Assembly: GCF_040907265.1 (NCBI RefSeq) | Contig: NZ_JBFOHP010000002.1 | Location: 3,248,501 to 3,312,500, forward strand | Direction: 5' to 3' | Length of the DNA: 64,000 bases | Source: Streptomyces sclerotialus | Lineage (GTDB): Bacteria > Actinomycetota > Actinomycetes > Streptomycetales > Streptomycetaceae | Shown: positions 16,313 through 19,897 of the stretch, piece by piece | How positions within the stretch are numbered: the first letter of the stretch is position 1 | Layout: each line of letters begins with the position of its first letter | Position numbers and translations under genes: made by a program | The notes under the pieces: generated by a model | Databases searched by the model: none | What the model was told of the DNA's origin: nothing | What the model saw: the letters and a program-made list of their open reading frames with translations, nothing else

Positions 16313-18610
16313 ATGAACGACGATTCGCAGCAGGACGGCCAGGGAAGTAACGGTTCCGCCGAGGCCGCACCGGGCGCCGCCCCGAGCCCCGGCAAGAAGG
16401 GCCGCCCCCGCCGCACGGGCTGGCGCCGCTTCCTGCCCACCTGGCGCATGACCCTCGGCGGCATCCTGGTGATCCTGCTGATCATCGTCGGCGGCTTCCT
16501 CGCCGGTTACCTCCTCGTCGGCATCCCGCCCGCCAACAAGGCGGCCAAGGCCCAGAGCAACGTCTTCCTCTTCTCCGACGGCACCCAGCTCGCCCGCGAC
16601 GGCGAGGTCAACCGCGAGAACGTCAAGCTCAGCCAGGTCCCCAAGGACGTCCAGCACGCCGTACTCGCCGCCGAGGACCGCAACTTCTACAGCGAGTCCG
16701 CGGTCAACCCCGTCGCCATGCTGCGCGCCGCCTGGAACACCGTCATCGGCAAGGGCAAGCAGTCCGGCTCCACCATCACCCAGCAGTACGTCAAGAACTA
16801 CTACCTCGGCCAGGAACAGACGATCACCCGCAAGGCCAAGGAGTTCTTCATCGCCATCAAGCTGGACCGCGAGGTGAGCAAGGACGAGATCCTGGAGGGC
16901 TACCTCAACACCAGCTACTACGGCCGCAACGCCTACGGCATCCAGGCCGCGGCCCAGGCGTACTACAACAAGGACGTCAAGGACCTCAACGCCGCCCAGG
17001 GCGCCTACCTCGCCACCCTCCTCAACGCCCCCAGCCAGTACGACATCGTCGTCCACCCCGAGAACCGGCAGCGCGCCGAGGCCCGCTGGAACTACGTCAT
17101 GGACGGCATGGTCAAGAAGGGCTGGCTCAGCGGCTCCCAGCGCGCCGCCACCAAGTTCGACCCGCCCGGCGAGGCCAAGACCCCCAGCGGCCTCTCCGGC
17201 CGCCGCGGCTACTTCGTCAACGCCATCAAGGACTACCTCCGCGACAACGACATCCTCGACGAGGACGACCTCAAGGGCGGCGGCTACCGCATCACCACCA
17301 CCATCGACAAGAAGAAGCAGCTGGCCCTCGAAAAGGCCGTCGACGACCAGGTGATGGACCAGCTCGACAAGAAGAACCGCGACGCCGACAAGAACGTCCG
17401 GGCCGGCGGCGCCTCCATCGACCCCGCCACCGGCAAGGTCGTCGCCATGTACGGCGGCATCGACTACGCCCAGCAGTTCGTCAACGGCGCCACCCGCGCC
17501 GACTACCAGGTCGGCTCCACCTTCAAGCCCTTCGTCTTCGCCTCCGCCGTCGCCAACCACGCGACCACCCAGGACGGGCAGACGATCACCCCGCAGACCG
17601 TCTACGACGGCACCAACAAGCGGATGACCGTCAGCGACGGACAGCCCACCGGCTTCGCCCCCGCCAACGAGGACGACCGCTCCTACGGCCAGATCACCGT
17701 CTCCGAGGCCACCGACAAGTCCGTCAACGCCGTCTACGCCCAGATGGGCATCGACGTCGGCCCCGACAAGGTCCGGGAGACCGCCGTCGACCTCGGCATC
17801 CCGCGCACCACCCCCGGGCTCGCCGAGTCCCAGGGCGCCATCTCGCTCGGCACCGCCACCCCCAGCGTCCTGGAGATGACCAGCGCCTACGGCACCCTCG
17901 CCAACCACGGCAAGCGCGTCCCGTACACCTTCCTCCAGAAGATCACCAAGAACGGCGAGAACGTCACCCTGCCCGACCGGGCCGAGCGGACCGCGATGCC
18001 CCGCGAGGCCGCCGACACCACCACCTCCATCCTGCGCAGCGTCGTCGAGAGCCCCGGCGGCACCGGCGCCGCGGCACAGGCCGCGGGCCGCCCCGCCGCC
18101 GGCAAGACCGGCACCGCCGAGGAGGACAAGGCCGCCTGGTTCGCCGGGTACACCCCCGACCTCGCCACCGTCATCGCCGTCTTCGGCCAGGACCCCAAGA
18201 CCGCGACCCAGGAACCGCTCTACGGCGCCGGCGGCCTGGCCCGCATCAACGGCGGCGGCTGGCCCGCCCAGATCTGGGCCGACTACACAGCGGCCGCGCT
18301 CGACGGCAAGCCCGCCGAGGACTTCGACCTGGAGCTGGAGAGCGGCGCCGACCAGCCGGCGCCCACGGCCACCGCACCGCCCACCACTCCGGGCGGCGAG
18401 ACCGGGGCGCCCAGCACCCCGTCGCAGACCGCGCCGCCCGTCACGCCCCCGGCCACCACGGCGCCGCCGACCACCGTCGAACCGCCGGAGCCCACCTTCC
18501 CGACCGGGCCGCCGCCCACCACGGCCCCCACCGAGGACTTCCCCACGGTCGAGCCGGGCGGCGGCGGCCCCGGCGGAGCACCGGGAACCCCGCCGGGACA
18601 GCAGTACTAG
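16313..18610 (+). CDS. Class A penicillin-binding protein (transglycosylase/transpeptidase)
   Basis: A 765-residue bifunctional peptidoglycan synthase. A cytoplasmic basic tail precedes one membrane helix (about residues 45-70). The GT51 domain has catalytic Glu121 in EDRNFY and the STITQQ motif. The transpeptidase has Ser402 in GSTFKP, the SVN motif at 470 and KTG at 598. Residues from about 680 onward are a Pro/Thr-rich low-complexity tail that probably spans the wall. ATG 16313 follows GAGGAG at about 11 bases; in-frame codons upstream to 16193 lack support. GT51 usually has HGGVD after EDRNFY; here it is ESAVNP, a variation worth noting. Confidence 0.95.
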   Translation: MNDDSQQDGQGSNGSAEAAPGAAPSPGKKGRPRRTGWRRFLPTWRMTLGGILVILLIIVGGFLAGYLLVGIPPANKAAKAQSNVFLFSDGTQLARDGEVNRENVKLSQVPKDVQHAVLAAEDRNFYSESAVNPVAMLRAAWNTVIGKGKQSGSTITQQYVKNYYLGQEQTITRKAKEFFIAIKLDREVSKDEILEGYLNTSYYGRNAYGIQAAAQAYYNKDVKDLNAAQGAYLATLLNAPSQYDIVVHPENRQRAEARWNYVMDGMVKKGWLSGSQRAATKFDPPGEAKTPSGLSGRRGYFVNAIKDYLRDNDILDEDDLKGGGYRITTTIDKKKQLALEKAVDDQVMDQLDKKNRDADKNVRAGGASIDPATGKVVAMYGGIDYAQQFVNGATRADYQVGSTFKPFVFASAVANHATTQDGQTITPQTVYDGTNKRMTVSDGQPTGFAPANEDDRSYGQITVSEATDKSVNAVYAQMGIDVGPDKVRETAVDLGIPRTTPGLAESQGAISLGTATPSVLEMTSAYGTLANHGKRVPYTFLQKITKNGENVTLPDRAERTAMPREAADTTTSILRSVVESPGGTGAAAQAAGRPAAGKTGTAEEDKAAWFAGYTPDLATVIAVFGQDPKTATQEPLYGAGGLARINGGGWPAQIWADYTAAALDGKPAEDFDLELESGADQPAPTATAPPTTPGGETGAPSTPSQTAPPVTPPATTAPPTTVEPPEPTFPTGPPPTTAPTEDFPTVEPGGGGPGGAPGTPPGQQY

Positions 18611-18644
18611 CCGACACCGCGAGGCGGCCTCCGGGCAGCGGGCA

Positions 18645-18965
18645 TCAGTGCCCGGAGGTCGCCTTCAGGCCCACGACGGCCACCAGCAGCAGACAGATGA
18701 AGAAGATCCGGGCCGCGGTCGCCGGCTCACCCAGCACCACCATGCCCACGACCGCCGCACCGGCGGCGCCTATGCCCACCCACACGCCGTACGCCGTACC
18801 GATCGGCAGGGTCTTCGCGGCGTACGACAGCAGGGCCATGCTCGCGACGATGCCCGCGCCCGTGAACAGGCTCGGCCACAGCCGGGTGAACCCCTCGGTG
18901 AACTTCATCCCGATCGACCAGCCGACCTCCAGCAGACCGGCGACGAGCAGCAGGATCCATGCCAT
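18645..18965 (-). CDS. gdx: SMR-family guanidinium exporter (SugE/Gdx type)
   Basis: A 106-residue four-helix small multidrug resistance protein. The active-site Glu is in GLLEVGWSIGMK and the sequence GFTRLWPSL, KTLPIGTAYGVW and GEPAT follows the Gdx (SugE) subgroup rather than EmrE, so guanidinium/proton antiport is the likely activity. ATG 18965 has GGAGGTG six bases upstream; a longer frame to 19010 covers the leader. The 5' leader carries a guanidine-III riboswitch (19021-19061), which strongly supports this substrate. It converges on the PBP gene with 34 bp between stops. Confidence 0.92.
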   Translation of the reverse strand: MAWILLLVAGLLEVGWSIGMKFTEGFTRLWPSLFTGAGIVASMALLSYAAKTLPIGTAYGVWVGIGAAGAAVVGMVVLGEPATAARIFFICLLLVAVVGLKATSGH

Positions 18966-18978
18966 GACGGCACCTCCG

Positions 18979-19034
18979 TGACAAGCACGCACACGCCCGC
19001 GCGTGTGCATCTACAGGGGTGCGTCGTCTTGTCA
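18979..19034 (-). promoter_or_regulatory. Predicted expression platform of the guanidine riboswitch
   Basis: Reading the minus strand, TGACAAG inside the riboswitch (19034-19028) is exactly complementary to CTTGTCA (18985-18979), which directly precedes the Shine-Dalgarno bases CGGAGGTG (18978-18971). Between them stands an 8-bp hairpin, GCACACGC / GCGTGTGC (19008-18989). The two pairings of TGACAAG are mutually exclusive with the folded aptamer, so ligand binding could free the ribosome site. This mechanism is inference from complementarity. Confidence 0.5.
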
Positions 19035-19061
19035 TGACCCGGTACGGCGCGTCTCGTCGGG
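19021..19061 (-). ncRNA. Guanidine-III (ykkC-III) riboswitch aptamer
   Basis: The 41-nt minus-strand segment starts CCCGACGAGACGCGCCG and ends GGTCATGACAAGACGACGC. It matches, nearly base for base, the guanidine-III aptamer known from Thermobifida fusca (CCGGACGAGG... and GACAAGACGGCGC, recalled from the published structure). The conserved ACGAG and GACAAGAC are kept. CCCG (19061-19058) can pair with CGGG (19041-19038), where T. fusca has CCGG/CCGG, a covariation. The other helix (19050-19044 with 19027-19021) has one C.A mismatch. It sits 56 nt before the start of a Gdx-type exporter. Confidence 0.85.
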
Positions 19062-19157
19062 ATGCCCCCGACCTTAGCAAGCCATGCCGAAACGGGCGGT
19101 GACACCGGTCACCGCCCGTTCGCGCGTACTGGTCAGGGCCTTACCGGAGAGAGGGAC

Positions 19158-19508
19158 TCACAGGTACAGCCCGGTGGAGTCCTCGGCGCCTTCCAGGCGC
19201 TCCGCCGCCACCGCGTGCAGGTCGCGCTCGCGCATCAGCACGTAGGCGACACCGCGCACCTCCACCTCGGCGCGGTCCTCCGGGTCGTACAGCACCCGGT
19301 CCCCCGGCTCGACGGTACGGACGTTCTGCCCCACCGCCACGACCTCCGCCCACGCCAGCCGGCGGCCCACCGCGGCCGTCGCGGGGATGACGATGCCACC
19401 GGTCGAGCGCCGCTCGCCCTCGGTCGTATCGGTACGGACGAGCACCCGGTCGTGCAGCATCCGGATCGGCAGCTTGTCGTGGGTGTCCTGAGTGTTGTTC
19501 GGGCTCAC
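19158..19508 (-). CDS. GroES-like co-chaperone paralogue
   Basis: A 116-residue protein of the chaperonin-10 fold: MLHDRVLVRTD at the start of the fold, the mobile-loop region GERRSTGGIVIP, and VGQNVRTVEPGDRVLYDPED. No groEL gene is adjacent, so this is a stand-alone paralogue. GTG 19508 was chosen because the residues upstream look non-coding; no convincing ribosome site is present. Whether it can cap GroEL cannot be judged. Confidence 0.82.
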   Translation of the reverse strand: MSPNNTQDTHDKLPIRMLHDRVLVRTDTTEGERRSTGGIVIPATAAVGRRLAWAEVVAVGQNVRTVEPGDRVLYDPEDRAEVEVRGVAYVLMRERDLHAVAAERLEGAEDSTGLYL

Positions 19509-19576
19509 GGCAAGACCGTACCTGTATCCGCCCCCGGACCGGACCCCGGCCCGGCAGTACGGACCCGGCAATCCCC

Positions 19577-19897
19577 CTACGACCGCCGCTTGCGCGCGCT
19601 CATCGCCAGCAGCCCCACCAGGCCGACCGCGACCAGCGCCACCGGCACGATCCGCTCCATCCGCGGCGCGCCGTCCTCCGACACCAGCTGCGAGCGGACG
19701 TCGGAGACCGCCCGGTTGGCGACCACGTACGCCCGCCCGGCCGTACGGTCCACGGCCGCCGCCGCCTTCGCCTTCGCGTCGCCGACGATCGTCCTGGGGT
19801 GCAGCCGCACGCCGATCTCGTCGAGCGTCACGGCGAGCTCCTGCCGCCGGCGGACGATGTCCGCCTCGATCTGCGCAGGGGTCCTGGCATCCGACAC
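19577..19897 (-). CDS. DUF3618 protein with C-terminal membrane helix
   Basis: A 106-residue protein with the DUF3618 pattern: ARTPAQIEADIVRRRQELA, then VRLHPRTIVGDAK, then an amphipathic helix, and one membrane segment (IVPVALVAVGLVGLLAM) ending in a basic RKRRS tail. GTG 19897 has GGAGGC eight bases upstream. The much longer open frame to 20755 is the antisense of the peroxiredoxin gene and is not coding. Divergent from bcp. Function unknown. Confidence 0.85.
   Translation of the reverse strand: MSDARTPAQIEADIVRRRQELAVTLDEIGVRLHPRTIVGDAKAKAAAAVDRTAGRAYVVANRAVSDVRSQLVSEDGAPRMERIVPVALVAVGLVGLLAMSARKRRS

Follow-up and report, generated by a model that had tools for sequence, protein, structure and literature searches.

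On the minus strand of the window, the 64,000-nucleotide stretch of Streptomyces sclerotialus DNA analyzed here, a short leader carrying a guanidine-III (ykkC-III) riboswitch aptamer precedes a gene for an SMR exporter of the gdx/sugE type, with a Cpn10-like gene farther upstream (Table 1). The sequence-only reading had proposed a ykkC-III aptamer at 19021..19061 on this strand and a search with the Rfam guanidine-III model as the way to check it. That search gave a significant match to RF01763 at 19083-19018(-), spanning model positions 1 to 67 of 67 with 51.1 bits, above the gathering score of 36 (E = 1.1e-7, counted for the 64-kb window), and both class and strand are thereby confirmed. Comparing letters, 19061-19021(-) is exactly P1a-ACGAG-P2a-P1b-P2b of the aptamer and reads, in order, CCCG, ACGAG, AC, GCGCCGT, AC, CGGG, TCATGACAAG, and ACGACGC. 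The ACGA reported to be perfectly conserved in the guanidine-III class (PMC2864571) is found here in ACGAG at 19057-19053(-). The segment 19021..19061(-) is a guanidine-III riboswitch aptamer, and the locus, with the kind of gene that usually follows it, is a well-supported but unremarkable example of an established riboswitch class. It appears to be the only one in its 8.28-Mb genome: in an RF01763 search in which 150 of 5,833 first-look candidates were scored, no second element exceeded the cut-off, and the next-best match reached 18.5 bits.

Table 1. Features of the guanidine-III/exporter locus, in window coordinates
Feature	Position	Strand	Basis
Extended -10 TGCTAAGGT	19079-19071	-	TGNTANNNT pattern in relatives
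Inverted repeat AACGGGCGGTGAC-CGGT-GTCACCGCCCGTT, probable terminator of upstream Cpn10-like gene	19091..19120	-	Conservation; loci without riboswitch
Guanidine-III aptamer core	19021..19061	-	RF01763, 51.1 bits over 19083-19018
P1 pseudoknot, CCCG 19061-19058 with CGGG 19041-19038	19038..19061	-	5 fully paired combinations, 142 parsed loci
ACGAG	19057-19053	-	Letters compared
P2 helix, 19050-19044/19027-19021, 7 pairs including C.A	19021..19050	-	C.A in 69/70 CCCG-subtype loci
Predicted anti-Shine-Dalgarno strand GACG(AC)GCACC, overlapping 3' half of P2	19018..19028	-	Predicted duplex with 18974-18966; leader fold
Linker hairpin GCACACGC-GCGG-GCGTGTGC, between aptamer and Shine-Dalgarno sequence	18989..19008	-	Sequence and predicted fold
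Shine-Dalgarno sequence and spacer GGAGGTGCCGTC, predicted partner of anti-Shine-Dalgarno strand	18966..18977	-	Duplex prediction; letters
gdx/sugE-type SMR exporter gene, 106 aa, start ATG 18965	18645..18965	-	PF00893, 93.9 bits; Gdx-Clo

The product of 18645-18965(-) is probably a guanidinium exporter of the Gdx type. A SugE/Gdx-like partner had been suggested at the outset, and the PF00893 match, the likeness to Gdx-Clo (PDB 6wk5; E = 2e-32, with 58 of 104 residues identical), and the binding-site residues all agree with it. E13, S42, Y59, W62, and W16 are named for Gdx-Clo, W16 being the residue that separates Gdx from Qac proteins (PMC7695847); all five are present here, as is G-I65-G. 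Compared with Gdx-Clo, the protein is actinobacterial, and its guanidinium transport is predicted from sequence. Its score against the NCBIfam SugE equivalog, 123.2 bits, falls narrowly below the cut-off of 126. A GGAGG (18977-18973) ends 7 nt 5' of the ATG at 18965; a longer start at 19010 is unlikely, as it would lie upstream of this Shine-Dalgarno sequence. Guanidine-induced export is what would be expected for the riboswitch class and for riboswitch-linked SMR genes (PMC7266159; PMC12186494).

The locus shares with the RF01763 class the conserved letters, the P1 pseudoknot, P2, a downstream SMR (emrE-type) gene, and an actinobacterial host. It differs from the class in having CCCG/CGGG in P1, a C.A in P2, a transcript start predicted at the aptamer, and a model 5' stem that is only partly pairable and overlaps the promoter. 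In P1, CCCG (19061-19058) pairs with CGGG (19041-19038) at four of four positions. The Rfam consensus is CCGG/CCGG, which we take to be the helix of the T. fusca reference aptamer as well. The third pair, G-C in the consensus, is C-G here, a true double change, so that the compensatory exchange claimed in the sequence-only reading stands. Every one of the 142 parsed loci has a fully paired P1, although the first loci of the set were biased to high scores and the parser required ACGA and at least three of four P1 pairs. The parsed loci were 142 of 143 riboswitch loci (L001 and L009 to L150), L034 not fitting the pattern. Five combinations were found: CCCG/CGGG in 70, CCGG/CCGG in 64, CTGG/CCAG in 5, GCGG/CCGC in 2, and TCGG/CCGA in 1. 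The CCCG/CGGG form, seen in 70 of the 142 parsed loci, is thus fixed in a Streptomyces subtype; for that reason it supports the fold, but the locus itself adds no independent evidence. An SMR gene of the EV[GA]W[SA] type follows the aptamer at every one of the 70 CCCG loci and was assigned to none of the 72 others. The search pattern found no SMR motif at 22 of these 72, of which at least 4 (L067, L135, L144, and the N-interrupted L038) resemble SMR genes of other types.

P2 has six of seven standard pairs plus a C.A mismatch at 19047/19024, to which cmscan gives no non-standard mark. At this fourth pair, the CCCG loci have C.A in 69 of 70 cases and U-A in the other; the 72 remaining loci have C-G (43), C.A (17), U-A (6), U-G (4), or G-C (2). 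In the 5' stem of the Rfam model, whose stretch overlaps the extended -10, two of five pairs are non-standard here; transcription of this stretch would allow the other three to form. This stem lies outside the ligand-binding P1/P2 core, and we therefore did not count its broken pairs against guanidine-III membership. One could take the P2 mismatch and the two broken stem pairs as marks of a decayed or chance look-alike with no function. We regard this as extremely improbable: the match reaches 51.1 bits, the same mismatch recurs in nearly the whole subtype, the stem stretch coincides with a conserved -10, and the change in P1 is compensated.

How might such an aptamer control the exporter? GACG(AC)GCACC (19028-19018) is predicted to be able to pair with GGTGC-CGTC (18974-18966), immediately 5' of the AUG, and this helix also appears when the window leader is folded without constraints. 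Opening the AUG together with the 15 nt before it cost 13.6 kcal/mol with the aptamer free to fold in any way and 6.4 kcal/mol with the aptamer set aside. Across the CCCG group, the medians were 12.4 and 6.8 kcal/mol, and the difference exceeded 2 in 65 of 70 loci; the median difference of 5.9 compares with a mean of 0.9 (maximum, 1.6) in 20 rounds in which the Shine-Dalgarno region was shuffled. At the other SMR loci, the medians dropped from 7.8 to 2.5, with a difference above 2 in 41 of 50, but shuffled controls (mean, 4.63; maximum, 5.47) nearly reached the real value of 5.52, so that this group lends little support.

A second read-out, the unpaired probability of the Shine-Dalgarno sequence, did not behave as a switch would predict, and we counted it against switching. 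Setting the aptamer aside did not raise the mean for GGAGG in the window (0.20 to 0.17); none of the 70 CCCG loci gained more than 0.2 and 3 lost more than 0.2, and at the other SMR loci (n = 49), 9 gained and 10 lost. The flat response arises because, in the folded-aptamer state, part of the Shine-Dalgarno sequence is still paired to ACC and the linker. The unpaired probability of the AUG rose from 0.38 to 0.72 in the window; otherwise, only the opening cost moved. The linker itself contains a perfect 8-bp hairpin; by eye, comparable hairpins are seen in L050 and L041, and the linkers of other relatives differ.

Comparison among loci also bears on the predicted pairing. The partners change in step by subtype, with GCACC/GGUGC here and GCUCC/GGAGC in L133, L136, L145, and L147. 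Across all SMR loci, 5 of 2,000 permutations paired as well as the matched strands; the figure was 31 of 2,000 outside the CCCG subtype and 384 of 2,000 inside it, all uncorrected for relatedness. That the signal is absent inside the subtype reflects sequences that are nearly invariant. The terminator scan called no terminator in the leader that could serve as an expression platform, and the guanidine-III class is described as an ON switch acting on translation and mRNA stability (PMC12186494).

The match to the aptamer model, the covariation in P1, the identity of the gene, the promoter motif, and the predicted competition are computational results, and the ligand, the direction of switching, the start site, and export are inferred. 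It is very likely, in our judgment, that this guanidine-III riboswitch controls translation of the downstream Gdx-type guanidinium exporter and is turned on by guanidinium. In the ligand-free RNA, 19028-19018, made up of the 3' strand of P2 and the bases that follow it, would pair with the region from the Shine-Dalgarno sequence to the start codon (18974-18966), and this pairing would keep the ribosome away. Guanidinium would stabilize the P1 pseudoknot and P2, the anti-Shine-Dalgarno strand would be withdrawn, and the exporter would be translated. The transcript probably starts 1 to 3 nt before P1, and the aptamer would then double as the mRNA 5' end. The class and its partner gene were already known; within the literature searched, only the genus-level details of the subtype are new.

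The placement of the start comes from the promoter. An extended -10, TGCTAAGGT, ends 9 nt ahead of the aptamer, and TANNNT is the -10 reported for Streptomyces (PMC6742748). Within the 60 nt upstream, the TGNTANNNT pattern ends 6 to 11 nt before P1 in 64 of 70 CCCG loci, lies at 29 to 30 nt in 2, and is absent in 4; over the same distance, the 72 non-CCCG loci have an extended -10 in 18 cases, at 19 to 38 nt from P1. A fixed promoter-aptamer pattern occurs in 270 of 392 genus genomes, with none for the reversed control among the matches listed. The gap from -10 to P1 is 7 to 9 nt in 117 of 127 distinct loci, these having themselves been chosen by a pattern of the promoter-aptamer type. No sigma-70-type pair of -35 and -10 was found at the locus. 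If 6 to 7 nt separate the -10 from the start, the mRNA probably begins at about A19063, 2 nt before P1, and the first 21 positions of the Rfam model would then cover promoter DNA. The main texts of three Streptomyces transcriptome papers (PMC6742748, PMC8269248, and PMC8914203) make no mention of guanidine. We also considered a competing 5' hairpin, GUCGGG/CCCGAC (19072-19056), as an anti-P1 element, but the last letters of the -10 fall within its left arm, which is probably untranscribed; by eye, only some relatives have the hairpin.

A start this close to P1 raises the question of whether the aptamer mainly protects the 5' end, the ligand-bound pseudoknot blocking 5'-end-dependent decay so that the mRNA lives longer and yields more protein. 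The promoter layout, which puts the start a few nucleotides before P1 at the great majority of CCCG loci and in the 270 genomes noted above, is what such a role would call for, and protection from RNase E is reported for guanidine-III (PMC12186494). We nevertheless find it rather unlikely as the main effect, since the competition between P2 and the Shine-Dalgarno region predicts a direct effect on translation too. We imagine, tentatively and as something plausible if not quite probable, a "5'-terminal" Streptomyces form of guanidine-III. Its transcript would start with P1 itself, the usual 5' stem would be gone, P1 would be recoded, and the nearly fixed C.A would weaken P2 enough for the 3' strand of P2 to switch to pairing with the Shine-Dalgarno region. 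If true, one ligand-driven pseudoknot would gate ribosome access and 5'-end decay jointly. The near-fixed distance from promoter to aptamer offers an inexpensive way to test whether an mRNA can begin directly with guanidine-III.

Upstream of the promoter lies an inverted repeat (19091-19120) whose core, GGTGAC-N4-GTCACC, sits within a longer stem (19120-19091). The simplest reading is that this repeat probably terminates transcription of the Cpn10-like gene upstream. The core also matches the S. coelicolor Crp consensus GTG(N)6GNCAC (PMC10033298), and it could instead be the site of a Crp-family activator near -41.5 relative to the predicted start, placing gdx under both cAMP-Crp and guanidine. 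Of 187 distinct sequences, selected by the promoter-aptamer pattern, 168 have GGTGN8CACC in the upstream 110 nt, and in 152 of those 168 it lies 26 to 29 nt from the extended -10; five control palindromes of like letters occurred in 0, 0, 0, 3, and 6 of the 187. In the genome of S. sclerotialus itself, five full palindromes exist, and only the one at gdx lies within 60 nt of an extended -10. The failure to find a sigma-70-type -35 and -10 pair also speaks for a Crp-type site, and 8 matches to cNMP-binding domains, 7 above cut-off, are present in this genome.

What weakens the case for an operator is that the core stays behind the Cpn10-like gene where the riboswitch is missing: of 21 genus genomes without a riboswitch match that were requested, 15 were readable, and 12 of these 15 loci keep it. 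The outer arms, moreover, covary as a stem and run into T-rich columns, the core is missing in 19 of 187 sequences, and three loci have it at a half-turn distance (33 to 34 nt). Among the other spacings of GGTGN8CACC, 11 were at 37 to 39 nt and 2 farther, one of them in a low-quality stretch. We consider a Crp-type site improbable. The terminator scan of 18500-19600 made no call, but it wants a longer T run, and U enrichment is reported to be weak at Streptomyces 3' ends (PMC6742748), which supports reading 19091-19120 as a terminator. The -10 lies 3 to 133 nt from the upstream stop codon where one was found. The strong conservation of the core letters and their near-constant distance to the gdx promoter are not explained by the terminator reading.

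The guanidine-III element is usual in the genus. RF01763 scored above cut-off in at least 201 of 246 genus genomes, including that of S. sclerotialus (at least 206 at E <= 0.001), in at least 118 of 296 genomes of the class, and in at least 34 of 61 relatives in a mixed set; the large multi-genome searches used stricter filters, and these counts are lower bounds. The suggestion that aptamers of this kind are easily missed does not hold for Rfam-based annotation, since those 201 genomes pass the curated cut-off. The best 80 of 386 named loci encoding a relative of the exporter were all from Streptomyces, with the nearest records possibly omitted. The predicted guanidine detoxification unit is thus present in S. 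sclerotialus and in most genus genomes examined, and this wide distribution implies that soil actinomycetes probably meet guanidine as a regular stress. By eye, six loci from genus genomes with no riboswitch match (L312, L315, L317, L318, L320, and L321) have gdx or aptamer remnant-like sequence beside the Cpn10-like gene, which suggests repeated and probably recent losses.

Guanidine-III also stands before SMR genes of other types (EAVWA, ETAWA, etc.) in the same bacterial class. These share the aptamer class, and pairing between P2 and the Shine-Dalgarno region is possible in many of them, but their P1 is mostly CCGG or CTGG, their extended -10, where present, lies farther from P1, as described above, and the median distance from GAC to AUG is 25 nt (n = 53, including a few wrong starts) compared with 44 nt in the CCCG type (n = 70).

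Other downstream genes were seen as well. In 6 of the 142 parsed loci, all in the genus, a CCGG-type guanidine-III precedes a gene for an MBL-fold hydrolase (L019, L030, L101, L103, L113, and L143); the protein encoded downstream of 1501-1565 in L019 matches PF00753 with 44.8 bits, and the other five share the N-terminal WIHGSPSAKHN. This hydrolase is a candidate guanidine-related enzyme. At L035 (1589-1840), guanidine-III precedes a gene for a small (about 80 aa) membrane protein where an SMR gene would otherwise stand; the protein matches the NCBIfam CBU_0592 family (43.3 versus 25 bits), and by eye, similar short frames occur in L148, L149, L085, and perhaps L073. Proteins of this type are candidates for a new guanidine exporter or sensor. 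Finally, guanidine-III was found before arginase-family genes in L063 (PF00491, 256 bits) and, as judged by similar N termini, in L066, L065, and L072; an association with speB-type genes is known (PMC2864571).
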